DNA from: Porphyra umbilicalis
Lineage: Eukaryota; Rhodophyta; Bangiophyceae; Bangiales; Bangiaceae
Length of the DNA stretch: 62,467 bases
NCBI GenBank assembly: GCA_002049455.2
Contig: KV919154.1
Location: 1-62,467 of the forward strand
Direction of reading: 5' to 3'
A program made the translations under genes and the position numbers. This document shows positions 6,077 through 36,445 of this stretch, in pieces (the stretch's first letter is position 1; each line of letters opens with the position of its first letter). Under the pieces are notes generated by a model. The model did not search any database and was not told the origin of the DNA. It saw nothing but the letters and a program-made list of their open reading frames with translations.

Positions 6077-6154
6077 CTCTCCCACCGGGAATTGAACCCG
6101 GGTCTCCCGCGTGACAGGCGGGCATACTGAGTGTTTTACAGGACCACTATTCTA
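6077..6154 (-). tRNA. tRNA-Asp(GUC) remnant 4, missing the 5' acceptor strand
   Basis: The sequence runs from tRNA position 8 to discriminator G73. The anticodon loop CTGTCAC, T arm and 3' acceptor strand TGGGAGA are intact. The seven bases that should form the 5' acceptor strand are replaced by the 3' end of E3 (ATAAAC). The A box reads TAGAATAGTGG, and the D-loop insertion is a variant with T for A. The remnant cannot form a normal tRNA, but it keeps a B-box match GGTTCAATTCC and a TTTT run about 15 nt downstream. Confidence 0.85.
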
Positions 6155-6213
6155 GTTTATCACACGGTCGAGAATAAACTCCCCCTCACAGCCTCACTCG
6201 GGGGTGGCCCCCC
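6155..6213 (-). other. E3 3' UTR with two hairpins
   Basis: After the stop codon at 6214 the minus strand has a G-run/C-run hairpin (GGGG with CCCC around GGCCA). A second stem follows, AGTTTAT with ATAAACT, whose last base is the first base of the following tRNA remnant. The same two-hairpin layout, with different stem sequence, ends E1 and E2. Confidence 0.65.
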
Positions 6214-7671
6214 TCACTCAACAATGTTCGCAACCAGAGAATTTGGACCAAGTGGCCCCCGTCCGCTCGCACCCTCGACCTCCGCACCCATCCCAAAACT
6301 CCGACTGTACCCAATCGCCACCGCGCGGGAGTGCGACCGCCACAGCGCCACTGACACACGGGTCAGCAGGGCCGCGCGCGCCCCCGCGCGCTGCGGCCCG
6401 CCCAGCGCGTCGCGCAGCCACCGCCGGGTGGCGGGGCCGATGCGGCCGTACGCCTCCCACACCAACGGGGTGAAGGTGTGGGTGGTTCCCCGCCCAGCGA
6501 GGGCAGGGGCGTACTTGGCCCGCTTGGCCGCCTCGCGCGCCACGGCCGTCACCGGCCGCAGCGGCGCAGCGGCGGCGTCGGGCATGGCGCCAGCCGCGAA
6601 CGGCGCCGTCACGGACGCGTCCGCCCACGCTACCACGCCCGACGCGGCGTGCGTGGCGCACAGGTCTGGGCGGAGCGTGCCGCGGGATGCCGGCAGGGCA
6701 ATCTCCGCGACCACACCTGTCCACGACGGTGCCGCGCGCAGCGCCTCCACCACCAGGTGCACCACGTGGTGGTGGAGCCGTGCGTGAAGGGAAGACTGCT
6801 CCGGGCAGGCCGACAGAAAGTGCCGGCCCTCGGCGTCGGTGTCCCTCCCGCAGCGGCACCGCCGCCCAGGCGGCACCGACCTCGGCGGCGCGCCCAGCCA
6901 AAGCCGCACAGCCACGCGCATGGCCGCCCCGGTGAACGCAGTGCCCCCCACGCCAGGCGTGGGGAGCGCTGACAGCCACCGGGCGGCCCCGCCACCCTGG
7001 CACGCCGCCAGCCCGGCCCGCTGCCACAGCGAAAGCTCCGCGTAGATGCGGGCGCGGGCGGCGGCGTAGGCCGCCTCAGACAGCCCCCGCTGCGTGGCCG
7101 GCACCCCCCCCCAGCAGTGCCCGCCACGTGGCGGGCGACAACGACGCCGGGCTGTGTAGGCCCGCGGCCGGAGTGCTGGTCGCACCGGCGTCGCTCTGCA
7201 GGGGGATGGGTACGGGACCGGCAGCGCAAGCGCGTCCGGGTCGGTAGCGGCCGCCAAGGCGCCAGCAGGGGGCGGGGGCGCCCACAGGCCGGCATGGGCG
7301 CGGCTCATGGCGTGAGCCTGCTGGGCGTCCAGCAGCGCCAGCAAGCTCCGCCGGAGCGCCACCGCCCTCGGCGGGCCAGGCGTAGGGCCGGTATGCGAGG
7401 GCGGTGCGGCCGGCGGGGGAGGCGGCGGCTCCAGGTCCGCCGCGACTGGGGGCGGGGGAAACTCTATCGCGCCCCCCGGCCCCCAAAACCACACCCCACC
7501 GGCCGGTGGCGCGGCGGCGGAGGCACCCTCCGCTGCGGCCGCCACTGCACCAGGTGACCCGCTCGGGGAGGCGGCCTCGGCCCCCCCCCCGGGCGTACTC
7601 CCAGGCACGTGCGACAACGCCGCCGCATCTGGCAAGGCCGGCGGTGCCGCCGAGGAGGCAACTTCGGCCAC
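6214..7671 (-). CDS. E3 ORF2 C-terminal part: Cys-His knuckle and restriction-like endonuclease
   Basis: This frame carries the C-terminal part of ORF2 but is offset from the main frame that ends at 7464. One frame change therefore lies between 7464 and 7671 or just upstream. It contains a C-x-C-x9-H-x4-C knuckle (CRCG to HFLSAC), an H-rich helix, then the nuclease core RPDL followed by an acidic residue in AWADASV, and Lys residues in AAKRAKY. The conserved block TFTPLVWEAYGRIGP follows. This order is typical of the restriction-like endonuclease domain of R2/NeSL/CRE-type non-LTR elements, which nicks the DNA target and primes reverse transcription. The start given is only the first Met of the open frame. 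In life it would be reached from ORF2, not initiated here. Confidence 0.75.
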   Translation of the reverse strand: MAEVASSAAPPALPDAAALSHVPGSTPGGGAEAASPSGSPGAVAAAAEGASAAAPPAGGVWFWGPGGAIEFPPPPVAADLEPPPPPPAAPPSHTGPTPGPPRAVALRRSLLALLDAQQAHAMSRAHAGLWAPPPPAGALAAATDPDALALPVPYPSPCRATPVRPALRPRAYTARRRCRPPRGGHCWGGVPATQRGLSEAAYAAARARIYAELSLWQRAGLAACQGGGAARWLSALPTPGVGGTAFTGAAMRVAVRLWLGAPPRSVPPGRRCRCGRDTDAEGRHFLSACPEQSSLHARLHHHVVHLVVEALRAAPSWTGVVAEIALPASRGTLRPDLCATHAASGVVAWADASVTAPFAAGAMPDAAAAPLRPVTAVAREAAKRAKYAPALAGRGTTHTFTPLVWEAYGRIGPATRRWLRDALGGPQRAGARAALLTRVSVALWRSHSRAVAIGYSRSFGMGAEVEGASGRGPLGPNSLVANIVE

Positions 7672-10600
7672 CCCGCAGCAGCGCCGCCGGTCGCAGGCGG
7701 CCGCGCGCCAGTCGGCCCCGCCGCGGCCGACACGGCGCGCGTTGGCTCAGTGCCGCGGCGTCCCGACGGCCTCTGCAGCGCGCCACCGCGCGCGGCGCCG
7801 CCCGCCACTGGCGGCGGGCGCCCCAGAGGCGGGCCGTCGCCGTCGCCGCCCACTTCCAGGGGCCCACCGTCCGCAGCCGTGCACGGCACGGCGCGCAAGC
7901 CGTCCGCGACGGCGCGTAGGGCGGGCGAGTACGCCGCGCCTGCCCGCAGCGCGTCGACGCGAGACGCCAGCGCGGCGGCGGGCACGACGCGCGTGCGCCC
8001 GCCGATTCCGAGCCCGCCCATGGAGGTCGGCAGCGCCGCACGGGCCAGCGCCGCCTGCTTGACGGCGGAGCTGTCCCGCGCGTCGAACAGAAGACGCTCC
8101 AGGACGGACTGGGCGTCAGCATCGACGGCCGCAGCGAGGCGCGCACCGGCCACCAAAGGCAGGGCACGGAGCCAGTAGTTGGCCCGCGGCCCTGCGCACA
8201 GGCGCAGCAGCAGCAGCTGCGCCTGCAGCTCGGTGGGGGGGAGGGCCGCCATGGCGGTCACCAGCTCGCGGTGCTCGGCCGCCACCGCGTGGACCCCCGC
8301 CGACACAAAGTCAGCGCCGCCGAGGGGCACAGAAAACTGCACCACCCCCTCGGCGGCCCAGCCACCTGTCCACCCTGCCGGCGCCGGCGCCCCCGCCGGC
8401 GACCAGCCGACACACTTGGTGGGGGCGAGATCGGCGTCGACCGCCGCCCCCACCGACGCCGCGTCGGCCATCACGGCGCCGAGAACTACCGGCGGCCCCA
8501 GCGCCACCACGTCGTCGTGGAAGGCGCGGATCAGGGCGCCGGGGTGCGCGGCCCGCAGCCGCCGCAGAACCAGCCAGAGCGCGGCGGCATGCAGCAGCGG
8601 GCCGAGCGGGTCGCCCTGCTGGGCGCCGCGCTCGGCCGGCAGCCGCAGCCGCGTCGGCGGCGGGGGAGGGAGACGATCCTCCCCGTTGGCGTCGGCGTCG
8701 TCGGCGTCGACAAGCGGTGGCGTGACGTCGCCATCGACGTCGGTCGCCGCCCATGCGTACACCGCCGGCGCCGCTTCCCCATCGTACAGCGTCGCAAGAA
8801 GCGGCGCGACGACGGGGAGGGCGCGCGACAGCACCGCCATGGCGGCGGCGCGCGACACGAGATTGAAGGCGTTGCGGTAGTCCAGTTGGACTACCGCATG
8901 CCCGGGATGGTAGGCCAGGTGGGCTTCCATCTCGTGGAGCAGACGCTCACACGCGCTGGAAACCCCCACCCCGAGCTGCGCCGGCGACAGCAGCTCCGCC
9001 GCCGCCACCCGCACCGTCGCCGCCAGCGCAGACGCCGCCAGCTTGCGCAGAGTCTCAGGCATCCCGATCGGCCGAAGCCCCGGGAGCCCGTCCCCCCCGA
9101 CCCCCCCCGGCTTCGTCAGCAGAAGGAGGTCAGCGCCCGCCAGGGCGTGCGCAGCCACCGCCGGCAGGCGCAATGTGACGGCTTCGCCGACCAGCAGGTC
9201 GACGACGCCGACAAGCGCGTCCTGCCCGGCCGCCGACAGCGCCCACAGGTGCTCCGAGCGCAGGCCGGATGGGCCCGGCGCTGCACCGCGGGGCGCTGAC
9301 CGGATGGCCGCTACGACGGCGTCGCGCGACACCCGCCGCGGCACCAACGGGCGATCGCCAAAGTCGGCAGCCGCCGCCAGCTCCGCGGCGAACTCCGCCT
9401 CGACCGTCGCGGTGGTGGCGGAGGCTGACCACGCCGGCGGGAACAGGCCGCGCGCCTTGTCCCAGATCGCAGTGGTCTGCGGGGCGGGCGGCTCGGCCCG
9501 CAGCGCGCGGGCGGCGGCGCTGGGCCGGCCTTCACGGACGAGGCGCAGCGCGCGGCGCTGCGATGAGGACGGCTGCGCCACGCGCTGCCCCGCCCGCCGC
9601 GCCACCGCTGGTCGCTCGCCGACCGGCCGCCGCCATCCGGGCCGCCACACGCCGGCGTTGCGGTCGGCGAGCGCGGCGATAAAGTCGCCGCGCATTACCA
9701 CCGCAGCACGCTCGGCGTGCAGCAGCGGCGGGCGCGGTCGATCGGGCGCGTCGGCTGGCGCGCGCGCGGGGGAGTGAAGCAGCAGCGTGGGAAGTAGAAA
9801 CAGCCACAACCACGCGCGTGCGTGCTCAGGCTCGCGGCGGACCCAGTCCAAGGCGTCCGCCGCGAGCACCCGCCACGCCCCGAGCAGCGCGGACGGCACG
9901 TGTTTAGCCGTCCGCGCCCCAGACGCCACCAATGGCGCCCAGTCAGCGTCGGCCGGTGCGACACGCTGCAGAAATGCAGAACAGGCCGCTACCCAGGCGC
10001 TATGGTCGGCCGCGAAAAGGTCGGCTGCGTCCGCCGCGTCCTCGGCGGGCGTGGCCGCACCGTCCGCCGCCGGCGCGGGAGCAGCGCGCGAGCGCTGGCG
10101 CCGCGGGTTGCCCCGGCAGAGGGCCTCGTGGGCAGAGAGAGAGCTCCGGCCACGAGGCCCACGCGCCGAGCGGTATGCCCGCTGGCACCAGCGGCACCCC
10201 GCCACCCCGTACAGAGCTGCCGCCGACGGCGGCAGGTCCTCCTCCCCCACTACGTGGGCGCGCGCCAGGTGCTCGTAGCCCCGCTTCGACCGCACGCCGT
10301 CTGGCAGCACGACGTTACAACCCTTTGCAGGGCACGTCTGCGGTCCTGCATCCGCCGCCGCGGGGGTGGCCGACCCTGCCGCCGCCGCAGCCGAGCTCCC
10401 AGCCGGCGACTCGTCGCCGTTGGACGGCGGCCCGTCGGCCCCGGCGCCCCCGGGTGGCCGCCCAGCGCCCATAGGGCGGCCACGTCCCCCCCCCTCGGAC
10501 GAGGACACCGTGCGGGAAGGCACCGTGCCCTCGCCCACGCCCGCGTCAGTGCCGTGGGTGTCACTCATGACGACCCTCGTCGCTGACGCGGGCGCAGCGC

Positions 10601-12962
10601 CCGGGCGGTGAGACCCGGGCGACGCAGGGATGGCCGACGAGCGGGCGCGGGTGCGCGTTGTCGTCGCGAGGGGGCCGCCGGTGGGCACCGCCGGCGGTAC
10701 CGACGCCGATGGGGGCGCGCCGGGCAGGCGGCGCCGCTTGGCGGACGGCGCGGACGGCGTTGGCGACACCGGGCGCGGCCGCACAGCGGCACGGGCCGCG
10801 CGCGTGCGCTGTCCGGCCGGCCGACTCGGCGAGACTAGCGGAGCGCCAAGTCGCGCCACGGCCAGGGCGACGGGTGGTCGCCGCGGCGACCCCCGCGGCC
10901 GAGACGGCGGGGTGCCGGTGCCCGCCACCAACGGAACACGCACAGCGGTGCGGCGCTTGCGCCCCCCCCCCGGCGACGGAAGAGGCACCGTAGCCGCCGC
11001 CACGGTCAACGCGCGCACCGCCGCGGAAGGCGGGCGGTTCCCCAGCGGTGGGGGCGGCCACACGCCCCCAGCAACCGCGGGAACCGCGGGCGACGCCAGG
11101 GGGCCACAGGGGACACCTCGGCGGCGTCGGCGGCGACCCGATCCAGCCGCTGGTGGCCACGCGAACAGCGCCGGAGGGTTGGGTGCAGCGGGCATCGCGC
11201 CCAGCAGCCGCCGCAGCGACGGGGACCAGCTGGCAGCCGCCGCCGGCGCCGGGTCCACAGCGACCGGCAGCGGCGCGGGCTTGGGCGGTGGCGAGCACTG
11301 CGGCGCTGCCGACGACAACGACGACGTCGTGTCCGCCGAAATCGACGTCGACGCCGACGTCGACGTCGACGTCGAAGCCGACGTAGACGTGGACAAGGAT
11401 GAAACAGACGATGTCGGCGCGGACGTCGTCGCCACCGAAGACGACGACGCCGCCGACGTTGACGAAGAGGCCGACGTTGACGTCGACGCCGATGTCGACG
11501 TCAGCAGTGACGCCCCCACCACCGAGAGCGACGTGCTTCCGGCGCGCGAGCTCTCCCCGCCAGCCCCAACCGAGCTCGGAGGCGGCGGCGAGCGCGGAAG
11601 GGCCGCAGCAGACGCGACGGAGTCAGCACAGGCGGCAGCAGCAGCGGCCGCCGATGGGGGCGGCGACGACAAGGACGGGCGAAGGGAAGCCCCCGACGAC
11701 GTGGGCGGCGCCGTGAACCCGGTGGCAGGCCGGGCCTCACGCTGCCCCACCGCGTTCTGAGACGGCGGGTAGCGTGCTCGGGTCCGGGATAGCCGGGCCA
11801 TGGGGGGGGCGCGGGCGACAGCCGCCGAGAACGGAAAATTTGCCGCGTCGGCGGCGCCGGCGACAGTGGCCGACGTCGTCGACGTGACCGTCGTGCTCGC
11901 GGCCACCGAAACCGGCCCAGCCGAAATCGGCGGCCGCGGCACTGCTGCATGTGGTTGGCCAGGGTCGAGAACGCCCGCGCGGCCGACCAAATCCTGCGGG
12001 TGGCTTACACCACCCGCTCGCCGGGCCGCCACGTCGGCGGCGGCGCCACGCAATCGCGTCTCGGCGCCGGTTGCGGGCGTGGTGGCGGCGACCGGCCCCC
12101 CCGCGTGCGCTGCAAGCATGCCCTGGATGTGGGCATGCAACGCCGCACGCAAGTGGGGGGGCATGGCCGCCCGTTCGGACAGCTGCCCCAGCTTGGCGGT
12201 CAGGCGGCGGCGGCAGTACGCCGCCGCCACGTCCGCGGCGAGCGCGCCACCGCCAAGCGCGCGGCGGCGCGCCGCGCCCAGCAGCGCCGGCGACCACGGG
12301 TCGGCGACTGGCAGCAGGCGCAGCACCGTAGCCGCGCGCCCGCGACCGACGGCGACGCGAAACGCTGGCGCCGCGTCGGCGACCAGCGTGACGGCGGTCG
12401 TCGTGCCGAAGCGGTCGGCGTCCACGAATGCGTGGACGCCGACCCCCGTGATGTCGGCCAGCATCGCCCGAAGGTGGTGCTGGCGGACGTCGCGGGACAC
12501 CCCCGAGACATACACTGTCTCGAGGGTGAGCGTCGGGGGCGGCCGTGGCCGCCGCCGAGAAAGTTCCGAGGCGGCGGCGGCGGCGCGCATGTCGGCGTCG
12601 ACGGAGCCGTTGGCGACCCACGCCGACGGCCCGACACGCGACGTCCGGGCGACACCGCCCGCAACCCCGCCGGCAGCAGCACACGAGGCACAAGCACCGC
12701 CCCCCCTGCGACGACCACCCAGCAACACAGCACCGAGCCACCCCCCCCGCGCACCGCCGTCGCCGCCGTCCTTGTCCGCGGCCGCCGCTGCGGCGCCGTC
12801 CTTGTCCCCGCGCTCGGTCGAAATTTTTCCGTCCTCGCGGCCGTCGGGACGGTCGTCGCCGTCGTCAGCGTCATGCTCGCCGGCCGATTGGCCGGCGGCG
12901 ATAGGGCGGTCCAGATCGGGGTCGGTTTGGGATCGGCGGGCCCCGCCGACAGAGCCTTGCAC
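7464..12962 (-). CDS. E3 ORF1-ORF2 fused frame: RRM-like domain, zinc fingers, reverse transcriptase
   Basis: This is an uninterrupted frame of 1832 codons. The N-terminal part matches ORF1 of the other copies: acidic and Ala-rich start, RRM-like segment near 12530-12280 (LETVYVSGVSRDVRQHHL), a Ser/Thr-rich tract near 11500-11330, and a basic KRRRL cluster. The second part begins at the ORF2 ATG (10568) and has two zinc fingers. The RT motifs follow in order: APGPSGLRSEHLWAL, RPIGMPETLRKLAASA, QLDYRNAFNLVSR (motif A), GAQQGDPLGPLL (motif B), AFHDDVVA (motif C) and KCVGWSPAG. Relative to E1, one base is missing near 10595, which removes the ORF1 stop and joins the two ORFs. The first Met here is not the true start. 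ORF1 began upstream, probably at 18924, before the copia insertion. The endonuclease domain is in the next frame (6214-7671). Confidence 0.8.
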   Translation of the reverse strand: MQGSVGGARRSQTDPDLDRPIAAGQSAGEHDADDGDDRPDGREDGKISTERGDKDGAAAAAADKDGGDGGARGGWLGAVLLGGRRRGGGACASCAAAGGVAGGVARTSRVGPSAWVANGSVDADMRAAAAASELSRRRPRPPPTLTLETVYVSGVSRDVRQHHLRAMLADITGVGVHAFVDADRFGTTTAVTLVADAAPAFRVAVGRGRAATVLRLLPVADPWSPALLGAARRRALGGGALAADVAAAYCRRRLTAKLGQLSERAAMPPHLRAALHAHIQGMLAAHAGGPVAATTPATGAETRLRGAAADVAARRAGGVSHPQDLVGRAGVLDPGQPHAAVPRPPISAGPVSVAASTTVTSTTSATVAGAADAANFPFSAAVARAPPMARLSRTRARYPPSQNAVGQREARPATGFTAPPTSSGASLRPSLSSPPPSAAAAAAACADSVASAAALPRSPPPPSSVGAGGESSRAGSTSLSVVGASLLTSTSASTSTSASSSTSAASSSSVATTSAPTSSVSSLSTSTSASTSTSTSASTSISADTTSSLSSAAPQCSPPPKPAPLPVAVDPAPAAAASWSPSLRRLLGAMPAAPNPPALFAWPPAAGSGRRRRRRGVPCGPLASPAVPAVAGGVWPPPPLGNRPPSAAVRALTVAAATVPLPSPGGGRKRRTAVRVPLVAGTGTPPSRPRGSPRRPPVALAVARLGAPLVSPSRPAGQRTRAARAAVRPRPVSPTPSAPSAKRRRLPGAPPSASVPPAVPTGGPLATTTRTRARSSAIPASPGSHRPGAAPASATRVVMSDTHGTDAGVGEGTVPSRTVSSSEGGGRGRPMGAGRPPGGAGADGPPSNGDESPAGSSAAAAAGSATPAAADAGPQTCPAKGCNVVLPDGVRSKRGYEHLARAHVVGEEDLPPSAAALYGVAGCRWCQRAYRSARGPRGRSSLSAHEALCRGNPRRQRSRAAPAPAADGAATPAEDAADAADLFAADHSAWVAACSAFLQRVAPADADWAPLVASGARTAKHVPSALLGAWRVLAADALDWVRREPEHARAWLWLFLLPTLLLHSPARAPADAPDRPRPPLLHAERAAVVMRGDFIAALADRNAGVWRPGWRRPVGERPAVARRAGQRVAQPSSSQRRALRLVREGRPSAAARALRAEPPAPQTTAIWDKARGLFPPAWSASATTATVEAEFAAELAAAADFGDRPLVPRRVSRDAVVAAIRSAPRGAAPGPSGLRSEHLWALSAAGQDALVGVVDLLVGEAVTLRLPAVAAHALAGADLLLLTKPGGVGGDGLPGLRPIGMPETLRKLAASALAATVRVAAAELLSPAQLGVGVSSACERLLHEMEAHLAYHPGHAVVQLDYRNAFNLVSRAAAMAVLSRALPVVAPLLATLYDGEAAPAVYAWAATDVDGDVTPPLVDADDADANGEDRLPPPPPTRLRLPAERGAQQGDPLGPLLHAAALWLVLRRLRAAHPGALIRAFHDDVVALGPPVVLGAVMADAASVGAAVDADLAPTKCVGWSPAGAPAPAGWTGGWAAEGVVQFSVPLGGADFVSAGVHAVAAEHRELVTAMAALPPTELQAQLLLLRLCAGPRANYWLRALPLVAGARLAAAVDADAQSVLERLLFDARDSSAVKQAALARAALPTSMGGLGIGGRTRVVPAAALASRVDALRAGAAYSPALRAVADGLRAVPCTAADGGPLEVGGDGDGPPLGRPPPVAGGAARGGALQRPSGRRGTEPTRAVSAAAGPTGARPPATGGAAAGWPKLPPRRHRRPCQMRRRCRTCLGVRPGGGPRPPPRAGHLVQWRPQRRVPPPPRHRPVGCGFGGRGAR

Positions 12963-13002
12963 GAGCGGGGGGGGAGCGGCAGGCTGGTCAACGCCTACAC
13001 CC

Positions 13003-13400
13003 TGTGAAGTGAGCGGTAGTTGGGTGGATGCGTTGCTTTACTCGAGAGCGGTCTGAGGCGCGAGGCCAGCTGGCTCTTAACCCCTCCGTGTGCCTCTCTC
13101 GCCACGTCCTGCCGGGGCACCCCCCGCCAGCGCAGTGCTCCCTCCCTTGGAGGGTACATGCTCTCACCACCCCACAAATCGCAACGCCTCTCGAGGAGCA
13201 CACGAGAATCTCCCCGAGCTCAGCTCCAAAGTGAGCTGCCCTCGAGATACAAGTACAAGTAATTACATCACACCTATACAGCAATGCATGCCAATGGCAC
13301 AGCCAAACAAGCCGATGACCGCATAAGTACTCCTGGAATTAGCCAGGCAGTCCGCGGTAACTCCGACTTACCTGCGCGGGCTTGGGGGGCTGCCTCAACA
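13003..13400 (-). repeat. copia 3' LTR
   Basis: This 398-bp LTR is at the downstream end of the minus-strand element and has the same length as the LTR at 18507-18904. Differences between the two include tgtgaag/tgtaaag at the edge and ctatac/acatac inside. Confidence 0.93.
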
Positions 13401-13418
13401 CTCCCCCCAGCACCCCAC
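13401..13418 (-). promoter_or_regulatory. copia polypurine tract
   Basis: On the minus strand the sequence GTGGGGTGCTGGGGGGAG lies immediately upstream of the 3' LTR, the expected position and composition of the plus-strand primer. Confidence 0.7.
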
Positions 13419-14178
13419 AGTCCGCGCCATCGACGCCTCAGCGCGGTCACAACCCGTCCCGACCAGTGCGACATCTCCCGCCATCATCCGCAGTCGAGAA
13501 AATGCCTAAGTCGATCCCCAGGTTCCAGGTGTTGCACCTGCAAAATCGACCTTCGCCAAAATCACCAAAATCACGATCGATGTGAAGCAGAAGTCGAGGT
13601 GAGTGCAACGCACTAGGGCGCGTCTCGAACGGAGACGATCCGGCGCATCGGCGGCCCGTCAAAGTGCGGGCGTAAACGCATCTCATCGACTTTGCCGAAA
13701 ATCGGCTCGACCCGTCGGAGCTGTAGGCCTACAGCTCCCTTAGCCAAAATCGGCCAAAATCGACTTGCACCAAATCGATTCGGGCCCGACCGGCCGACGT
13801 GGCCCGAAGCTGGAGACTTCCAGATTCGGGCCCAAGACCACAAAGAAATCGACTTCACCAAAATCGACTCGACCCGTCGGAGCTGTAGGCCTAGAGCTCC
13901 CGGCCGAAATCGCCCAAAATCGACTTGGGCCAAATCGAGTCGGGCGATCGCCTCGAACCCGCGGCTGCGCCACTGGTCGGCCCCAGTGGCGCCACAGCGT
14001 CCCAGGACGGTCCCAACCGGCCGTCCCCCAAGGCAGCAGCGCCCCATTGCCGGCCCCGAGCAAGTGGATAGTAGCGCAACCGTCCACGGCCGGCACCGGC
14101 CCGCAGCAAGGTCGACGGAGGTCGCTGCCGCGAATCCGGGGCTGCGCCACTGGACGCCTCCAGTGGCGCCATGGCGCC
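13419..14178 (-). other. copia 3' non-coding region with diverged internal repeats
   Basis: No long credible ORF is seen between the pol stop and the polypurine tract. The region contains two copies of a block around CCGTCGGAGCTGTAGGCCTA (about 13707 and 13879), each flanked by repeated AAAATCGACT motifs. It also has two copies of a GGCTGCGCCACTGG ... CCAGTGGCGCCA palindromic block (about 13965 and 14140). Confidence 0.6.
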
Positions 14179-16575: not shown

Positions 16576-16642
16576 CTCCGACGTGATGCCCTTGTCCTCG
16601 TACCATGCCTTGAGGTCGTTAGTGACGTACTCCTTGGCACCA

Positions 16643-16915
16643 TCATGCGGACGCGCTTGACCTTGACCCCCGTGAGCGTCTCAAGCTGCTTGATACGCGT
16701 CTTGAGCACGTCCGGGGCCATCCCTTTTGTCTTGATAGGCGTGCCGTGATGAACCCCGTGGAGTCCTCCAGCGCCGTCATGAAGTAGATGGAACCACCCA
16801 ACGACTCAGTGAGTGGGCCACCAATGTCGGTGTGACAAGTTCGCACTTGGTCGTCGCTGTCGACGAGCGGGGGCTGGGCGACTGAACCATCTTGCCGTCC
16901 ACACACGGCACACAC
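16643..16915 (-). pseudogene. copia integrase N-terminal core fragment
   Basis: This short frame holds CHTDIGGPLTESLGG and YFMTALEDSTGF, the first two catalytic Asp blocks of the integrase core. It sits between the GAG-pre-integrase frame (16777-17739) and the RT frame, and overlaps both in other phases. The coding potential is continuous, but the frame changes twice within about 350 bp. This marks either a damaged copy or indel errors in the assembly. Confidence 0.75.
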
Positions 16916-17739
16916 ACAGTGCCAATGACGCGCTTAGCGTCTGCCACTGACGACGGCATGCCGTCGACCATTGTGGCCGCCCGCTTGAGGTTCTCCAACC
17001 CCAAGTGGTTGAACCGACGGTGCCACAGCTCCGCCTCCCCAGCTATGCGCGTGGATGCCGCGTTAGCCGACGCCTGGACCGGCGTCACCTTGAGCACATA
17101 CTGCTCCAGGTCGTTCACCTTGCCGACCACCGACGCCTTGTCGAGCACCCCGCTCAAGCGAACAGCATCCCCGTCGCTGAGGATGTAACAGGCGTTGTTG
17201 ACAAACACCACCGCACCTCGATTGCGGTCGACCGCTCGAACCGACAGCAGGTTGCTGGTCAGGTTCGGAACGAGCATGGCCTCCCCGAGCACCATGCGCG
17301 TCTTCGTGTTTCCTTTGCCAACGTCCATGGAGACGTGGCCGTGCCCCTTGATGGGCACCTTATCGCCGTTGGCCAAGGTGACCTCGGCCCCGCTTCCCGC
17401 CGTCCGGATGGTGAAGCCCTTATCGCCGGCGGCCATGTGGTTGGTTGCGCCAGAGTCAGCACCCAAGTTGATAACCCCCGTGTGCTCCCGGAGCCTTGCT
17501 GCTCCCGGCATTGCCAGTAGAAGCAGTGTAGGCCAGAGCGGCACCCGCGTGGGGCCCGCCGCCGTGGCCGCCTTCACGACCACCACCGCCGGGCTTGCCC
17601 TTGCCCTTGGCCTCGTCCGCCTTCTTCTTCTAGCAGTCGCGCTGCATGTGTCCCTTCTTGTTGCAGTAGAAACACACGACCGACTTCTTGTCAAACGGTT
17701 TCTTAGGCGCCGCTGCCGCAAAGGCTTGTGACTTGACAC
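16777..17739 (-). CDS. copia protease and integrase zinc-binding region
   Basis: In this frame the meaningful part starts at about 17480 with VINLGADSGATNHM, the retroviral-type aspartic protease site (D-S-G). It continues with SNLLSVRAV and the GAG-pre-integrase segment LWHRRFNHLGLENLKRA with a downstream C-x2-C, the HHCC zinc-binding domain. The residues before the protease are out of phase with gag and are not meaningful. Gag and this frame differ by one phase, with a run of five G at about 17473 as the likely point of change. The protease cuts the polyprotein; the zinc domain belongs to the integrase. Confidence 0.85.
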   Translation of the reverse strand: MSSHKPLRQRRLRNRLTRSRSCVSTATRRDTCSATARRRRRTRPRARASPAVVVVKAATAAGPTRVPLWPTLLLLAMPGAARLREHTGVINLGADSGATNHMAAGDKGFTIRTAGSGAEVTLANGDKVPIKGHGHVSMDVGKGNTKTRMVLGEAMLVPNLTSNLLSVRAVDRNRGAVVFVNNACYILSDGDAVRLSGVLDKASVVGKVNDLEQYVLKVTPVQASANAASTRIAGEAELWHRRFNHLGLENLKRAATMVDGMPSSVADAKRVIGTVCVPCVDGKMVQSPSPRSSTATTKCELVTPTLVAHSLSRWVVPSTS

Positions 17740-18349: not shown

Positions 18350-18491
18350 GTTGACGACCTCGGCGCCGCACAGCGCCGCACTAACGACGTAGGGAGCAGA
18401 ACACGCCCGCCCGACGCCGGAACACACCGCGACCCCAGCAACGTCGTCTCGCCAGCGACCGCAGGGAAGACGACGGTTACCACCAGCGACA

Positions 18492-18506
18492 GCTGGGCCC
18501 ATAACC
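18492..18506 (-). promoter_or_regulatory. copia primer-binding site, initiator tRNA-Met internal type
   Basis: Right after the 5' LTR the minus strand reads GGTTATGGGCCCAGC. This is complementary to the anticodon stem-loop of eukaryotic initiator tRNA-Met (CTGGGCCCATAACC), not to its 3' end. The same type of site is known in Drosophila copia, where a cut tRNA half is the primer. Confidence 0.8.
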
Positions 18507-27369: not shown

Positions 27370-28064
27370 GACCGCCCGCGGGTGGGGCGCCGCCAGGCGC
27401 CGCGCCGCCGTCGGGCTTGTGGATGCCCAGCGGCGGTCCGCCAGCACCCCGGCCACGCCCACCAGCGGCGGCCACAGCCGCCGCACCAACGGACGCAACA
27501 CGCACAGCGTCGGGGGCCGCGCCGGGAGGGGGCACCCCCCCAACCACCACCCCCGCCGCGCCCCCAACACCCCCGACCGCCCGCGCACCTTGGGGGAGAA
27601 CGGGCGGGCGTGCACCGCCAAGCGCACGACCGCCAGGGCGAGCACCGCGCGCGCGCGCACCGCCGGGAGCACCGCCGGCCGCACCCGCAAGAGAAAAATG
27701 TCCGCCGCCGGCACCCAGACCGGCGCCCGACACGCCCCCGGCAGTACCGGATAGGTGGGGCCCCCCCCCCATAGGGGGGGGACCGACAGACACCGCCCCG
27801 CCCGCGCCAGCACCCAAAGCGGGCCCGGCGGCAAGGGGACGCAGCGGCAGACCGCCAAACTCCGGATCCGCGGCCGCAGCCGCCGGAAAAAGACCGCCAG
27901 TGGGCGGGGGGAGGGGGGGAAGGCCCCCCCTACAGGTCCCCCGAGGGGGGAGCCGACAGCGCGCCCGCCAGGGGCGGGCGGGGGTGCGACCCCCGCTCTC
28001 ACCCCCGTACGGGCCGGTGGTGGCGGCGAGCGGCAAGACCGGTCGCCGACCACAAACGCGGGGA

Positions 28065-28115
28065 CGCGATTGGACTGGATTGCGCAAATTACGCGATCCA
28101 GTAATTCCAATCGCG
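28065..28115 (-). promoter_or_regulatory. E2 copy of the conserved 51-nt leader hairpin
   Basis: The 51 nt are the same as in E1, with complementary ends CGCGATTGGA and TCCAATCGCG and an inner stem around a CAAATTA loop. Confidence 0.7.
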
Positions 28116-28480
28116 CCCCCGGCGTCGGCGTCTTGCTCACCAGATCCAGCACCGCAGCCACAGCGGTCCCCGCCGCCACCACCTCTGCCCCCCCCCCGCC
28201 ATCACACACGCCCCCCCCGTCCCTCCAACCGCGCAAACAAAGAGTCTCGATGCCCCCCGTCCCCGATCCGCCCAAAAACTCCCGCGCCGCCGCCGCCCCA
28301 GCGCGCCCGCGCGCCGCCCCGGCGTCCTCCACCGCCGCCCGCTTCCACGCCCCCCCGACGCCCTGATCTCCACCCACACGCCCCCCCCGCGCACCAAAAG
28401 AAGCGCAAGGGTGGCGGGGACAGCCCCCCGCCCCCCGCACCGCCAAAGCGAGCCGAACCACCCGCAAAAGCGAGCAATCA

Positions 28481-28558
28481 CTCTCCCACCGGGAATTGAA
28501 CCCGGGTCTCCCGCGTGACAGGCGGGCATACTGAGTGTTTTTCAGGACCACTATACTA
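28481..28558 (-). tRNA. tRNA-Asp(GUC) remnant 2, missing the 5' acceptor strand
   Basis: It is identical in structure to remnant 3. Positions 8 to 73 are present, including the D-loop insertion, and the first seven bases are replaced by the 3' end of E1 (GATAAAC). A and B boxes are intact. Confidence 0.88.
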
Positions 28559-28620
28559 GTTTATCACCCAGGCCGGAGATAAACTCTCCCTAACCAACAC
28601 CGCCGGGGGCCAAAGCCCCC
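28559..28620 (-). other. E1 3' UTR with two hairpins
   Basis: The hairpin GGGGGC-loop-GCCCCC (28605-28620) abuts the stop codon. The stem GTTTATC (28578-28584) with GATAAAC (28559-28565) forms the very 3' end of the element. Such 3' structures are the usual recognition site for the element's own RT. That role is inferred here. Confidence 0.7.
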
Positions 28621-31600
28621 CTAGTCACCAACCCTCCCCGCAACGTAAACCGCATCCAAAGGTCCACCCGCAACCGAATTCTCACCCACCACCGGAATCC
28701 CAAAGCACCGGCTGTAGCCAACGGATACAGCCCGGGCGTGGGACCGCCACAACGCCACAGGTATGCGGCGAAGCAGCGTCGCGCGGACGCCCGATCGGTC
28801 GGGACCCCCGAGGGAGTCCCGCAGCCACCGCGAGGTGGCTGGTCCGATCCGCCCAAACGCCTCCCACACCAACGGCGTGAAGGTGTGGGTGGTGGCGGGC
28901 AGGGCGCCGTCGTACTTGGAAGCCTTCAAGGCCTCCCGCGCCACAGCCGCCGCAGCCCGCAGGGGGGCAATGGCGGCCATTGCCACAGTGGCGTCGGTGA
29001 AGGGCGCCGAGACCGACGCATCCCCCCACACGACGACGCCCGACGCGGCGTGCGTCGCGCGCAGGTCCGGGCGCAGTGCCCCTCGGCCGCGCGCCACGAC
29101 CGCCTCCACCTGCACGTCCGTCCATGACGGCGAAGCCCGCAGAGCATCCGCCACCAGGTGCACCAAATGGTGGTGCAACCTGGTGTGCAGGCTGGTCTGC
29201 TCGCCGCACGCCGACAGGGAGTGCCGCCCGTCGGCGTCGGCGCCGCGGCCGCACCGGCACAGCGGCGCTGGCGGCACCGACCGCGGCGGCGCGCCCAGCC
29301 ACAGACGCACCGCCGCACGCATGGCCGCGCCGGGGATGAACGTCCCCGACACCCCCGGCGTCGGCAGCGCCGACAGCCACAGCGCTGCCCCGCCCCCCTG
29401 GCACGCCGCCATGCCCGCGCGCCGCCAGAGCGACAGCTCGGCGTAAATGCGCGCGCGGGCGGCGGCGTGCGCCGGGCGCGACAGGTCCCGCTGCGACGCC
29501 CGCGCCTCCCCCTCCAGCAAGGATTGCCACGTTGGTGGCGAGTACGGCGCCGGGCTGTGTTGCCCGTCGGCGTGTGCGTTGGTCGCACCGGCGCCGTATT
29601 CCGAGTCGGGGGGGGGGGGGGGGGCAAGCGAGTCCGCGCCCGCAGTGGGCGCCGCGTTCGGGCCGCCGCGCGCGCGCGACCACAGCGCGCCGGTGCCCGG
29701 CGCGATGCTGCGGGACCTGTGGGCGTCCAACAGGTCCAACAGGCCACGTCGGAGGGTGACAACGCCAGGCGGGTCGGGCGGCGGCGGCGGCGCGGGTGGC
29801 GGGGGGGGGTGCGACGGATCGAGGTCCGCCGGGTTTGCCGACGGGGGGTACTCGACAACACCGTTCGGCCCCCAGAACCACACCCCGCTCGCGGGTGGGG
29901 CAGCGCCCGCGGCTGCCGCCGCCGCACCCCCCACGCCCGGCGGGGAAGCGGGCGGGGCGGCGGCCCCCCCGCCTCCAGCAGCACCAACAGCTGCCGCAGG
30001 CTGCGCCGTCGTCCGCGCCCCCGCCGCGGCGGCACCAGCCGCTTTCCCCGTCGCAGGAGGCCCGCCGCTGCCGGCCGCCCCGGGCGCTCCACCCGCCTCT
30101 AGGGGCCCGCCGTCCGCTGCCACTCGCGGTAAGGCAAGCAGGCCATCCGCCGTCGCGCGCAGGGCGGGGGAGTAGGCCGCCCCCGCCCGCAACGCGTCGA
30201 CGCGCGACGCCAGCGCAGCGGCGGGGGCGATGAGCGCCCGCCCCCGATGCCGAGGTCGCCCATGGCCGGCGGCAGCGCCGCGCGCTCCAGCCCCGCCTGC
30301 TTGACGGCGGAGCTGTCACGCGCGTCAAACAGCAGCCTGCCGAGGACGGCCTGCGAGTCGGCGTCCACCGCCGCCGCCAGCCGCGCGCCGGCCACCAAGG
30401 GCAAGGCCCGAAGCCAATAGTTGGCCCGCGGGCCAGCGCACAGGCGCAGCAGCAACAGCTGCGCCTGCAGTTCGGCGGGGGGCAGCGCCGCGATGGCAGC
30501 GACGAGCTCGCGGTGCTGCGCCGCCACCACGGCCACACCCGCCGACACGAAGTCGTCGTCGCCGAGGGGGACAGAGAACTGCACCACCCCCTCGGCGGAC
30601 CAGCCCCCCGTCCACCCCGCCGGCGCCGCTGCCCCCGCCGGCGACCAGCCAACGCACTTAGCGGGGGCGAGCTCAGCGTCGATCGCCGACCCCACCTCGG
30701 CCGCATCCGACATCACCGCGGCGAGCACCTCCGGCGGCCCCGCCGCGACCACGTCGTCGTGGAACGCGCGGACGAGGGCGCCGGGGTGCACCGCCCGCAG
30801 CCGCGCCAGCACCAGCCAAAGTGCAGCGGCGTCCAGCAGCGGGCCGAGCGGGTCGCCCTGTTGGGCGCCCCGCTCAGCCGGCAGGCACAGCCGCGACGGC
30901 GGGGGCGGGGGAAGCGGCACGGGCGTGTCGCCCTCGTCCCCGCTGTTGTCCCCGTCCGGCGCCTCCGGCGCGGCGACGTCCCCCGACGTCCAGCCGTAGA
31001 CGGACGGTGCCAACTCCCCGCCGTACATCGCCTTCATGTACGGCGCGACAGCGGGGAGGGCGCGCGTCAGCACTGCCTCGGCTGCCGCCCGTGACACCAG
31101 GTTGAAGGCGTTGCGGTAGTCGTATTGACCTACCGCATGCCCGGGATGGAGGGCCACGTGGGCGCCCAGCTCGTGCAGCAGGCGCTCGCACGCGCTGGAC
31201 ACCCCCACCCCGAGCTGCGCCGGCGCGAACAGCTCCGCTGCCGCTGTCCGCAACGTCGCCGCCAACGCCGACGCCGCCAGCTTGCGAAGCGTCTCGGGCA
31301 TGCCGATAGGCCGAAGCCCCGGCAGCCCGTCCTCCCCCACCCCACCAGGCTTGGTGAGGAGGAGAAGGTCGGAGCCCGCAAGCGCGTCCGTGGCGACCGC
31401 CGGCACACGCGACACGAGCGCGTTCCTCGCAAGCTGCTGCACCACGGCGACGAGCGCGTCCTGACCGACCGCCAAGAGGGCCCACAGGTGCTCGGGGCGA
31501 AGACCTGACGGACCCGGCGCCTCCGCGCGGGGGGCGGAGCGGATTGCCACCACCACCGCCTCCCGTGGCTCCCGCCGCGGCACCGTCGGGCGGTCGCCAA

Positions 31601-32966
31601 AGTCCGCCGCCGACGCCAACTCGGCAGCGAACTCGGCCTCGACAGTAGCCGTTGTCGCCGTCGCGGAGGCGGCGGGGGGGAAGAGGCCGCGGGCCTTGGC
31701 CCAGACCGCGGCGGTCTGGGGCGCGGGCGGAGCCGCGCACAAGGCGCGCGCCGCGGAGCTCAGGCGCGCCGCACGCACAAGGCGGAGCGCACGACGCTGC
31801 GACGGGGTGGCTCGCGCGGAACCCTGGCCGCCGTGGTGGTCGGCCGGGGGCGGGGTCGCCACCGGCCGCGCCCACCCCGCCCGCCAGATCCCCGCGTTGC
31901 GGTCGGCGAGCGCGGCGACAAAGTCGCCACGCAGCACCGCGGCGGCGCGGTTGGCGTGAGAGAGCGGAGGGCGCGGCCGGTCCGGCGCGTCGGCTGGCGC
32001 ACGTACAGGGGCGTGCAGCAGCAGCGAGGGCAGCAGCAACAGCCACAGCCACGCCTTGGTGTGCTCCGGCTGGCGGCGGACCCAGTCGAGGGCGTCCGCC
32101 GCCAGCGCGCCCCACGCACCACACAGTGCAGTCGGCACGTGTTTGGTCGTGCGCGCCCCGGACGCCACGAGTGGCGCCCAGTCCGACCCCGCAGGGGCGA
32201 CGCGCAGCAGAAAAAGGTCGCGCGCAGCGACCCAGGCGGCACGGTCGACCTCAAAGAGGTTGGCCACATCGCCCGGGTCGGGCGCCGCCCCGCCCTCGGC
32301 AGGCCCCGCCGCCGCCGCCGCACCCGCGGCCGGTTGCGCGGCTGCAGCAGCCGCCGCAGCCGCCGCCGCACGTGCGGCAACCGCCCGCTGCTTGCGGGGG
32401 TTGCCGTCGCAGAGCGCCTCGTGGGCGCTCAGCGAGCTGCGGCCGCGACGCCGCGCCGTGCGGTACGCCCGCTGGCAGTAGCGACACCCCCCCAACCCAA
32501 GGTCCGCCGCCACCGGCGCGTCGAACTCGCCGATCTTGTGGGCGCGGGCGATGTGGGTGAAGCCCCGCGTCGACCGTACCCCGTCCGGAAGCACAACTGT
32601 GCAATCCCGGGCGGGGCACGTCGCGGGACCCCCCTCCGCCACCGCTGCGCCCGCCGCAGCAGCCGCACCGTCCCCCGCAACGCCCGCAGGGCCCACCGCG
32701 TCGCCCGCCGCGTCACCCGCCGCCGCACCGACTGCTGCCGCCGCCGCTGCCACCGCTGCACAGCCGCTACCGCCGGCCGCCCCAGCCGCGCCACCACCCG
32801 CCGCCGAGCGGCCGCCATCACCGGCTGGCCCGGCCGCCGCTTCACCCCCGGGTGGCGCACCCGCCGAAACGGGGTGGCCACTCCCTCCCCCAGCGGACGC
32901 GGGCGCGGTTGTTGTGGACACCGCGCCCGCGCCCGCACCCGCGCCAGCCATGGGGTCGTCACTCAT
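28621..32966 (-). CDS. E1 ORF2: zinc-finger, reverse transcriptase and restriction-like endonuclease protein
   Basis: The start is the ATG at 32966 (MSDDPMAG), overlapping the ORF1 stop. Residue positions: zinc finger 1 at C117, C122, H138, H143; zinc finger 2 at C161, C164, H182, C186; RT about 455-770, with D616 in QYDYRNAF, GAQQGDPLGPLL near 700-710 and FHDD at 735-738. The C-terminal part, in a shifted frame, has C-x-C-x9-H-x4-C (about 29260-29205), RPDL plus an Asp 15 residues later, LKASKY, and TFTPLVWEAFGRIGP. The frame changes near 30243, where E1 has five G and E2 has six; with six the protein would be continuous, about 1450 residues. It would cut target DNA and reverse transcribe element RNA. 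No APE endonuclease or RNase H is seen. Confidence 0.88.
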
Positions 32967-35249
32967 GGCGACCTTCGTCGCTGACGCGGGCCGCCGCACC
33001 CGGCCGATAAGGCCCGGGCGTGGCGGGGGGTGAAGGCGGCTGCAAGCGTGCCACCTCAGCACGCGCGGCAGCCCCGGCAGGCGTCGCCGCCGCGGCCGCC
33101 GACCTGGTGATGGGCGGGCCTCGCAGGCGGCGGCGCTTGGCAGAGGCCGGCGACGCCGCCGGCGACACGGAGCGCGGCCGCGTGGCCGCGTGGGCCGTGC
33201 GGGTGCGCGCGCCGGCAGCGCGGGCGGGCGACCGCTTCGGCGCGCCCGCATGCGCACGCGCGGGCACGCGGGGCGGCCGCCGCGGCGGCACGTGTGGGCG
33301 GAAGACCGGCGTCCCGTCGTTGCGGGCCGTGGCGCCAATGTCCGCAGCGCCACGCTTGCGGGCGTGGCGCGCGGATGGCAGCGCGACCGCAGCGGCCGCC
33401 ACCGCGTCCGCGACCGCGGCCGCTGTGGGCGGCCGCGACGGCGAAGGCGGAGCGGGAAACCCCTTCGCTGCCGACGCGCCCAATGTGGACGCGGCGGCGG
33501 CAGTGGGGGCGCGGCGCCGGCGACGGCGACGGCCAGGCGTGCCGGTGGCCGGCGCCAGCCGGAACGGGACCGGCGACACGGGGGCAACGGGCCACGCGGC
33601 AAGCAGCGGCGGCAGCAGCGCGCCGCGGCCGGCGCCCGGCGACGACGGCGACGCATGCGGCGCCACGAGCGCCGCGGGCGTGCGCGGCGACGGCGGCGAG
33701 GCCGGCGTTGGCGGTGGCACGGCTGCGGCCGCAACAGCGGAAGACGGCGTGGCGCGCGTCCCACCGCGCGCCGGAGGCGCGGGCGGGGGCGACGGGGGCG
33801 GTGCCGCCGAGGCCGACGTGGCGCCGCCGGCCGCGGCCGCGACACGCACCCCGACCGAGTTCCGTGCCGGTGAGGTGCGCGTGTGCGCCGCGAGCGACGC
33901 GGCATCGTCGGCGGGGGAGGCCCCGGCCGCGGCAGAGGTCGAATCTGCCGCGGCCGGGGCGGCGACGATAATTCCCTCCATCGTCGTCGCCACCGTCCCC
34001 ATCGCGCCGCCGAAATGCTGCTCGGGGGGCGGCGGGGGCGGCCGCCGATCCGCATGGGATTGGCGGGCGGGGTTCCGCCCCGCCCCGCCAACCAAAACCG
34101 GCGTGCTGCTTACAGCGCCCGCCGGCCGGGCCGCCACGCGAGCGGCGGCACCGGGCAGACGTGCCGCAGCCGGACTGGCAGACGCGGTGGCGACCGCCTC
34201 TCCCCGCGGATGCGCGGCAAGCCGGCTCCGGACGTGCGCCTCCAGGGCTTGGCGCACGGGGAGGCGCAGCGCGCCACGCCGGGGCAGCTGCGCCAGCTTG
34301 TCCAGTAGCCGCTGGCGGCAGTACCCAGCCGAAACCACCGCCGCGCGCTCGCCGCCGCCCAGCGCGCGGCGCCGAGCCGGGCCGAGCAGCGCTGGCGACC
34401 ACGGGTCGACGCCGCGGAGGACACGCAGCACCGTCGCTGCGTGTTCCCGGCCCGCCGCCGCCACAAACGCGGGGACCGCAGCGGCGACCAAAGTTACCTC
34501 GGTCGCCGCGCCGCAGCGGTCGACGTCCACAATGGCATGGACGTCGACCCCCGTGACTTCCGCCAGCAGCGCCCGAAGGCGGTGCTGGCGGACGTCCCGT
34601 GACACCCCCGAGACGTACAACGTCTCGAGGGTGAGCAGCGGGGGCGGCCGCCGCCGGCCGTGCGTTAGCTCCGCCGCCGCGGCGGCCGCGCGCGCGTCCG
34701 CGTCTTCGCCCCGGACCGCCATCCACCCCCGCGCCGCACCACATTCGTCCCCTTCGGGGCCGCCGGCCCCCCGGCCGGCAGCACCCTCGGCGCTTCGGGC
34801 GTCGCGCGCGACCGCATCGCGCCGCGCCCCACCCGCAACCGCCGCAAGCCAGCCGCCGCGCGCGACCGCATCGCGCTGTGCAGCACCCCCAAAAGAACCA
34901 AGACGAAACGCACCGAGCCGGACATCACCACCAGGGCAGTTCTCCACCATCTTGTCATTTGCCTTGGTTCTTGAAATCTTGCCACCTTGGCCGCCCTTGC
35001 CGCCCTTGCCGCCCTTGCCGCCCTTGCCGCCGTCGCCGTCCTTGCCGCCCCTTGAAACAGCGGCAGAATCTTGCACGGCGGGGGGGAGAGGGCCAACCCA
35101 GGCAGGCGCGCGAGCAGGCGCAGCATCGGCGCCCGCCGACACGCCCGCCTCAACTGCCCCCCCCCCGCGCCGACCGCCGCGGCGGCGGCTACGGCCAACC
35201 AGCGTCCACGCCTCGCCGTCGTCGGCGGCGGAGGCGCCTTGGAAGGCAT
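32959..35249 (-). CDS. E1 ORF1: Arg-rich RRM-like protein
   Basis: The frame ending at 32959 is open from 36357, right after the tRNA. The conserved family start is the ATG at 35249, one phase off because of a 2-nt difference after it. Features: SAADDGEAWTLVG followed by an Arg-rich stretch, a GGKGG repeat (near 35030), and an RRM-like segment (about 34640-34410) with beta-strand-like LYVSGV and ATEVTLVAAAV. Long Pro/Ala-rich low complexity and the basic cluster AKRRRL, a possible nuclear localisation signal, follow. It ends GRHE with the TGA inside ATGAGTGA. By analogy with other LINE ORF1 proteins it would bind element RNA. This is inference from fold-like pattern and position. Confidence 0.68.
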
Positions 35250-35945
35250 GACCGCCCGCGGGTGGGGCGCCGCCAGGCGCCGCGCCGCCGCCGGGCTCGT
35301 GAATGCCCGGCGGCGGTCCGCCGGCACCCCGGCCACGCCCACCAGCGGCGGCCACAGCCGCCGCACCAACCGACGCAACACGTACAGCGTCGGGGGCCGC
35401 GCCTGGAGGGGGCACCCCCCCAACCACCACCCCCGCCGCGCCCCCAACACCCCCGACCGCCCGCGCACTGTGGGGGAAAACGGGCGGGCGTGCACCGCCG
35501 AGCGCACGACCGCCAGGGCGAGCACCGCGCGCGCGCGCACCGCCGGGAGCACCGCCGGCCACACCCGCAAGATAAAAAAGACCACCGCCGGCACCCAGAC
35601 CGGCGCCCGACACGCCCCCGGCAGTGACGGAAGCGTGGGGCCCCCCCCCCACAGGGGGGGGACCGACAGACACCGCCCCCCCCGCGCCAGCACCCAAAGC
35701 GGGCCCGGCGGCAAGGGGACGCAGCGGCAGACCGCCAAACTCCGGATCCGCGGCCGCAGCCGCCGGAAAAAGACCGCCAGTGGGCGGGGGGAGGGGGGGG
35801 AAGGCCCCCCCTACAGGTCCCCCGAGGGGGGAGCCGACAGCGCGCCCGCCAGGGGCGGGCGGGGGTGCGACCCCCGCTCTCACCCCCGTACGGGCCGGTG
35901 GTGGCGGCGAGCGGCAAGACCGGTCGCCGACCACAAACGCGGGGA

Positions 35946-35996
35946 CGCGATTGGACTGGATTGCGCAAATTACGCGATCCAGTAATTCCAATCGCG
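35946..35996 (-). promoter_or_regulatory. E1 copy of the conserved 51-nt leader hairpin
   Basis: The outer 10-bp stem is perfect and the inner 10-bp stem has one wobble pair and a 7-nt loop. It is present at the matching place in all four elements. Confidence 0.7.
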
Positions 35997-36360
35997 CCCC
36001 CGGCGTCGGCGTCTTGCTCACCAGATCCAGCACCGCAGCCACAGCGGTCCCCGCCGCCACCACCTCTGCCCCCCCCCCGCCATCACACACGCCCCCCCCG
36101 TCCCTCCAACCGCGCAAACAAAGAGTCTCGATGCCCCCCGTCCCCGATCCGCCCAAAAACTCCCGCGCCGCCGCCGCCCCAGCGCGCCCGCGCGCCGCCC
36201 CGGCGTCCTCCACCGCCGCCCGCTTCCACGCCCCCCCGACGCCCTGATCTCCACCCACACGCCCCCCCGCGCACCAAAAGAAGCGCAAGGGTGGCGGGGA
36301 CAGCCCCCCGCCCCCCGCACCGCCAAAGCGAGCCGAACCACCCGCAAAAGCGAGCAATCA

Positions 36361-36445
36361 CTCTCCCACCGGGAATTGAACCCGGGTCTCCCGCGTGACA
36401 GGCGGGCATACTGAGTGTTTTTCAGGACCACTACACTATGGAAGA
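36361..36445 (-). tRNA. tRNA-Asp(GUC), complete, with a 13-nt D-loop insertion
   Basis: The gene is 85 nt. The 5' acceptor TCTTCCA pairs with 3' TGGGAGA (one G-U pair) and the discriminator is G, as expected for tRNA-Asp. The anticodon loop is CTGTCAC (GTC); the T arm is CCGGG-TTCAATT-CCCGG. The only deviation from the usual 72-nt tRNA-Asp is CCTGAAAAACACT inserted between GGT and CAGT of the D-loop. An A box (TAGTGTAGTGG) and B box (GGTTCAATTCC) are present. A TTTT run follows about 15 nt downstream. The insertion may be an ectopic intron or a decay mark. Confidence 0.9.

Follow-up and report, generated by a model that had tools for sequence, protein, structure and literature searches.

Background

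What builds a head-to-tail array of retrotransposons in which each element is bounded by a piece of the same tRNA gene, and does that piece belong to the target or to the element? The question is raised by a contig (C394, 62,467 bp; hereafter the window) of the 83.8-Mb Porphyra umbilicalis assembly, which the initial annotation had read as an array of restriction-like-endonuclease (RLE) retrotransposons embedded in tRNA-Asp genes. The answer that we consider likely is that a family of elements inserts at defined positions within certain tRNA genes, duplicates the remainder of the gene and leaves a full-length gene ahead of itself, the same gene being hit again and long arrays being formed. Target-specific elements are usually said, in the excerpted text of PMC4640811, to prefer multicopy targets because insertion there is less harmful.

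The array in the window

The array occupies the minus strand and is composed of the following features, listed from its head with the evidence for each.

36361..36445, minus strand: complete tRNA-Asp(GTC) at the array head, with a 13-nt D-loop insert (Rfam, 49.0 bits, model 1-71; sequence)
28559..36360, minus strand: element E1, 7802 bp, Asp subclade I (junctions, length, RT tree as L009)
36346..36349, minus strand: T4 near the E1 5' end, candidate Pol III terminator of the head tRNA (sequence; background count)
28481..28558, minus strand: tRNA-Asp body from nt 8, target-site duplicate 1 (sequence, genome search)
20351..28480, minus strand: element E2, 8130 bp, subclade I (junctions, length, RT tree)
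20273..20350, minus strand: tRNA-Asp body from nt 8, target-site duplicate 2 (sequence, genome search)
6155..20272, minus strand: element E3, subclade II, split by a copia insertion (junctions, RT tree)
12993..18796, minus strand: Ty1/copia element inside E3 (300-nt direct end repeats, 97% identical)
6077..6154, minus strand: tRNA-Asp body from nt 8, target-site duplicate 3 (sequence, genome search)
1..6076, minus strand: 5' part of element E4, truncated at the contig end (5' end match at 5881-6076; RT fragments)

Partial tRNAs were recovered by Rfam at 28489-28558, 20281-20350 and 6085-6139, all on the minus strand. By reading of the sequence, tRNA nt 8 directly follows ..GATAAAC in the three truncated bodies and the last base is the discriminator G, so that both approaches agree with the annotation of one complete head tRNA and three others that start at nt 8. 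The anticodon loop reads CTGTCAC, with the anticodon GTC of Asp. Every D-loop of the array carries a 13-nt insert relative to a paralog on C137 that has no D-loop insert, and it is probably because of this insert that ARAGORN found no tRNA.

The tRNA-bounded minus-strand elements stand as annotated, but the array does not end at 6077, since E4 begins at 6076 and is truncated where the contig stops. The RT fragments of E4 are 95% (1232-1756), 68% (663-1256) and 52% (2-670) similar to E1, with stops in the latter two. The third element was likewise correctly described as a tRNA-bounded unit, with the correction that it contains a copia insertion of ~5.8 kb with gag, Pol_BBD, gag_pre-integrs and RVT_2 domains. 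Elsewhere in the window, an ORF at 52817-53902 with HTH and DDE_3 domains resembles an IS630/Tc1-like transposase, and an ORF at 44609-45928, away from the array, has an Exo_endo_phos domain.

Element proteins

The coding features of the elements are as follows.

30099..34091, minus strand: E1 ORF of 1330 aa with zinc-finger motifs and RT (ORF list, Pfam, reading by eye)
32409..32618, minus strand: E1 N-terminal C2H2 (CPARDC..HIARAH) and CCHC (CRYCQ..HEALC) motifs (by eye)
30645..31319, minus strand: E1 reverse transcriptase domain with FHDD (Pfam RVT_1, E 0.0033, below cut-off; R2 by profile)
28621..29448, minus strand: E1 CCHC knuckle and RLE (profile search)
6217..7047, minus strand: E3 C-terminus, basis of the RLE structure model (structure model)

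The N-terminal zinc-finger motifs of E1 gave no Pfam match; N-terminal zinc fingers are also found in R2. A profile built from 14 relatives matched R2 proteins in the PDB with whole-sequence E-values of 7e-12 to 1e-10 and an i-E of 1e-6 for the RT stretch, where a single-sequence search had given no matches. The RLE part alone reached an i-E of 0.01 to 3.6, which counts against our preferred explanation, as does the breakage of the E1, E2 and E3 frames at different places in the ORF list. As modelled, the C-terminal fold of E3 (CCHC plus RLE) matches that of R2. The annotated domain set of zinc fingers, RT and C-terminal RLE was thus recovered through motifs seen by eye, a weak Pfam RVT_1 match and an R2-type CCHC and RLE C-terminus.

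Several properties place the elements among RLE retrotransposons. Their RT is related to non-LTR RTs (the R2 profile match and the weak RVT_1 match), and a CCHC motif and a restriction-like endonuclease lie at the C-terminus. The lack of an AP endonuclease is judged by absence of a match alone: Exo_endo_phos gave no match in six relatives at E <= 1 or, at E <= 0.1, in 12 ORFs of E1-E3, among them the upstream ORFs. Insertion is site-specific, which is typical of RLE elements without being universal (19/19 5' ends and 14/14 3' ends, see below). The elements share with R2 the RT, the CCHC motif, the RLE and, in the structure model, the C-terminal fold; they differ in that they target tRNA genes and not the 28S rRNA gene of the R2 clade, and their sequence match to R2 is remote. 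Insertion into tRNA genes also sets them apart from Utopia, defined by the U2 snRNA gene, and the presence of RT and RLE, with no DDE match in the element ORFs scanned, from Dada, defined by a DDE transposase.

Protein searches for relatives returned Bangiales and unnamed proteins, none of them labelled R2, NeSL, CRE, R4, HERO or Utopia. Three relatives from Pyropia vietnamensis (P0022, P0024 and P0025) have consecutive locus tags, MMPV_008766 to MMPV_008768, on contig records of equal length, and may form an array there too.

Junctions at tRNA-Asp genes

Genome searches scored the best candidates only, and the tRNA-Asp counts are therefore lower bounds. At least 23 tRNA-Asp segments were found, made up of six filled full-length genes, 14 truncated bodies and three empty genes. 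The filled genes, with an element directly behind them, number at least six (C394, C438, C36, C24, C179 and C491); the bodies without nt 1-7 at least 14 (three on C394, two each on C36, C24 and C628, four on C271 and one on C457); and the empty genes at least three (L047 on C334, L048 on C188 and L053 on C137).

A query with the element 5' end gave at least 21 genome matches, 19 of which start within 8 nt of the query start. Among the matches listed, a tRNA-Asp segment directly precedes all 19; those on C11 and C280 cover inner parts of the query only and lie outside this count. At the other end, an element 3' end precedes each of the 14 truncated bodies found. Behind the body on C457 comes unrelated sequence that has a T-run of its own, the pattern to be expected of an original 3' flank at the tail of an array. 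The six filled heads have 78, 78, 78, 80, 92 and 93 nt between nt 8 and the end of the tRNA, and both junctions are kept despite this variation, which indicates that each break is tied to its own tRNA feature and not to the other break.

There are irregular copies. In the filled tRNA-Asp of C24, nt 8 is C and not T, which speaks against the preferred explanation. L010 on C187 has an RT 93% like that of E1, with its RLE and 3' part broken off into unrelated sequence, and so yields no 3' junction. At C457:5885-13450, ~6.9 kb of other sequence separates the two parts of an Asp-type 3' end (query matches 1-534 and 528-601). The annotation had named copies ending mostly at unrelated sequence as an outcome contrary to its reading; with all 19 5' ends and 14 3' ends adjoining tRNA-Asp, this was not seen, and the reading of a target-specific RLE family in tRNA-Asp is supported.

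Other tRNA targets

Related copies, 72-73% identical at the 3' end, sit behind tRNA-Gly(CCC), for which nine hits comprise three filled full-length genes, five bodies from nt 13 and one empty gene. The sole empty gene found, L081 on C147, has a 31-nt D-loop insert near the position of the Gly element join, and the three filled genes have none; such an insert might protect the target site, judging from this one gene. tRNA-Ile(AAT) is the target of copies on C57, C507, C415 and C15, with two full-length and ten truncated tRNAs among 12 hits, and its elements form two subfamilies, one joining at ~nt 5 and the other in the anticodon arm. Initiator tRNA-Met gave seven hits: three filled genes, two empty genes and two bodies from the anticodon stem. 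One filled initiator gene, L096 (C15:76000-76500), has lost its CAT anticodon, an observation against our explanation; either the gene is a pseudogene or the sequence contains an error. Altogether an element lies directly behind 6/9 tRNA-Asp genes (a lower bound), 3/4 tRNA-Gly(CCC), 2/2 tRNA-Ile(AAT) and 3/5 initiator tRNA-Met genes found. For all four tRNAs the 5' junction is directly behind the tRNA 3' end, and the inner junction differs.

TTTT starts 11-32 nt behind the discriminator in all 14 full-length filled genes (six Asp, three Gly, two Ile and three iMet), which are not 14 independent cases because of shared ancestry within families; the background frequency is 4% of 40-nt windows in E1 and E2. 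T4 is also present in 12 of 13 Asp 5' ends behind truncated bodies, the exception (C271, 30 kb) counting against the explanation that we favor. Empty genes are followed by T-runs of their own.

The tRNA habit is not universal in the genome, since the ends of a related clade on C456, C4, C13, C115, C114, C69 and C225 adjoin non-tRNA sequence. These copies (L059, L060, L063-L066 and L070) belong to a related RLE clade whose long 3' UTR is conserved and whose ends have no tRNA; six of the seven retrieved ends show ..CTCTCT.. followed by a TAGTAAC-like end and then unrelated sequence, and L060 stops earlier. A 5S-targeting relative (L033/L075, C241) was considered and rejected, there being one copy only, located in a 5S spacer. 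C241 itself (L075, L113-L116) holds a tandem 5S rRNA array of ~635-bp units, with dispersed 5S copies farther along.

Proposed mechanism of insertion

We regard it as probable that these are site-specific RLE non-LTR retrotransposons that insert into tRNA genes by TPRT, rebuild the gene and form arrays by insertion at the head. By analogy with known RLE biology, the bottom strand would be cut within the tRNA (in tRNA-Asp, ahead of nt 8), the element RNA would be copied from this nick, and the top strand would be cut at the tRNA 3' end. The two cuts would lead to duplication of everything between the inner cut and the last tRNA base. The upstream copy would then be a full-length tRNA gene that could still be expressed, and the downstream copy, without the 5' acceptor strand, is presumably dead. 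A T-run in the first bases of the element could act as a Pol III terminator for the upstream gene. As the rebuilt head gene is again a target, the array should grow at its head; new elements would enter there and arrays would extend head-to-tail.

The 5' junction could instead be set by RNA, with RNase Z 3'-processing of a tRNA-element cotranscript making the 5' end of the element RNA. Its position just after the discriminator in all four tRNA families, where the inner junction differs, and the lack of a ruler between the two junctions are both in keeping with this alternative, but Pol III should terminate at the T4-T6 that lies just within the element, and we consider the alternative rather unlikely. 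Because the duplicate needs a DNA break at the 5' junction anyway, RNase Z processing may add to the two-cut mechanism and not replace it.

RT phylogeny

The RT tree comprised 36 genome copies and two outgroups. Target labels were taken from contig junctions, except that L010 was labelled Asp by similarity only; L027-L029, L032 and L037 carry no target label. The Asp (14 copies, 99/98), Gly (five, 100/100) and iMet (two, 100/98) users each form a single clade, and the four Ile copies form one with the unlabelled L037 (100/100). All tRNA users group together at 94/95, and five copies of the clade without a 3' tRNA fall outside. The sister relationship of Asp and Gly has support of 88/87 only, and the placement of the two iMet rows and L030 is unsure because of their long branches.

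tRNA inserts as locus barcodes

The D-loop inserts of tRNA-Asp vary among loci in sequence and length and can be used as barcodes. All seven truncated bodies whose head lies on their own contig are closest to that head, with an edit distance of 0-3 as against 3-6 to the next head; for the other seven no head is placed on the body's own contig, and they fall outside this comparison. The duplicated body is thus locus-specific. Two exceptions count against the preferred explanation: an 18-nt insert is present in the head L090 of C57 and absent from the next body, L091, and on C271 two barcode types occur in succession with a broken element between them. Recombination between arrays or misassembly could account for both.

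Barcodes common within arrays would also be expected if a single insertion per locus had been followed by tandem duplication of the tRNA-element unit through unequal crossing-over. The two C36 RTs are sisters (95/90), element 5' ends are alike within C394 and within C36, and RT copies are joined with no intervening tRNA on C24 and C271, all of which point the same way. Set against this is the mixture of subclades I and II, which are 77% identical in RT and alternate with clean tRNA junctions both in the window array (I, I, II from the head, followed by E4, with a start of the RT 95% like that of E1) and on C628. This alternation argues that repeated insertion, not duplication alone, built the arrays; as a full account duplication is quite unlikely, and it may add copies besides insertion.

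That the tRNA body is instead a part of the element, a tRNA-derived 5' or 3' end of its RNA copied to every site, would suit the presence of a body at every Asp copy with a known end and the lack of a common barcode in the C57 pair, but it is highly improbable and for tRNA-Asp largely refuted, since the locus-specific inserts match the local full-length gene in 7/7 testable cases, related elements use the bodies of other tRNAs with different start points, and the empty genes L047, L048 and L053 exist. Bodies carried by the element, the second outcome that the annotation had set against its reading, were therefore not seen.

Under repeated insertion at the head, the direction of growth may be reflected in body divergence. 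The farthest body retrieved is the one most different from the head in both C394 and C24, which weakly suggests head-ward growth; the two bodies in C36 are identical to each other.

The inserts of the empty paralogs L053 (C137), L047 (C334) and L048 (C188) differ in length and in position (D-loop or T-arm), in the manner of ectopic tRNA introns; that of L053 lies in the T-arm, with none in the D-loop. Introns at unusual tRNA positions are known from another red alga, Cyanidioschyzon, according to the excerpted text of PMC3978253.

Possible RNA structure at the 3' end

In Asp and Gly elements, a candidate helix of GTTTAT(C/T) with the 3'-terminal (G/A)ATAAAC pairs in 95.7% of cells, a value reached by 213 of 500 shuffles. 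A subterminal hairpin is common to 17 3' ends of the four target families. Both-sided changes occur at four of its five pairs (81 of 500 shuffles reach four), and its 16 both-sided cells and covariation score were reached by 0/500 shuffles, a control that is inflated by related rows. From these substitution patterns the hairpin is a possible recognition element.

Discussion

Restoration of a tRNA gene by an inserting element has a parallel in bacterial islands with attachment sites in tRNA genes, which restore the gene on integration; they do so with a tyrosine integrase, by DNA recombination and not reverse transcription. A very long target-site duplication, as seen here, is reportedly made by R9 of rotifers (126 bp), an element of RLE type that differs from ours in its rDNA target. 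The TRE elements of Dictyostelium integrate some distance away from the gene and possess an APE, in both respects unlike the present elements. What the two share, in the excerpted text of PMC5391098, is being non-LTR elements targeted to tRNA genes.

Utopia is, like the present family, an RLE element in a small RNA gene; its target is U2, with no TSD in arthropod families and a 20-bp TSD in reptile families (PMC4640811, excerpted text), whereas here four tRNAs are targeted in one genome and the duplicate extends to the gene end. Among the Dada DNA transposons are families that each target one particular tRNA gene, in some cases at the A box. They use a DDE transposase, make a 6-7 bp TSD and insert inside the gene, and the authors tie target choice to copy number in the portion of the text consulted (PMC3706591), as compared with at least nine tRNA-Asp genes here.

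The annotation had proposed a new target-specific family. tRNA genes as such are known RLE targets, namely of NeSL-1_TV (tRNA-Pro), LIN15_SM (tRNA-Arg) and LIN25_SM (tRNA-Glu), as given in the excerpted text of PMC4640811; these resemble the present elements as RLE non-LTR retrotransposons with a tRNA gene target and differ in tRNA and host. The literature matches listed, which exclude most subscription papers and Repbase, contain no tRNA-Asp RLE family, no case from a red alga and no retrotransposon described as restoring a tRNA gene. The word 'tRNA' is absent from the main text of the Pyropia yezoensis genome paper (PMC7423979).

We lean slightly towards a broader reading, in which a red-algal RLE clade makes gene-sparing insertions in essential low-copy tRNA genes, anchors its second cut to the tRNA 3' end regardless of tRNA length and of the position of the inner cut, brings a terminator with it and takes the rebuilt gene as its next target, with arrays that record insertions from tail to head and with changes of target among at least four tRNAs under the same scheme. 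Filled genes are still full length, with the one exception in the iMet anticodon, and gene rebuilding may remove the need for many target copies. If this is true, a clade that shifts from one tRNA gene to another and spares each of them would offer new insertion sites and a comparative set for the study of target change in RLE proteins. R2 proteins are described in published abstracts as under development for gene insertion at rDNA. The variable tRNA inserts act as natural barcodes, by which target duplication can be separated from cargo and a fixed spacing between the cuts can be tested.

Among the other contigs, C665 has many of the tRNAs, spread across at least 183 kb, and resembles a red-algal plastid.
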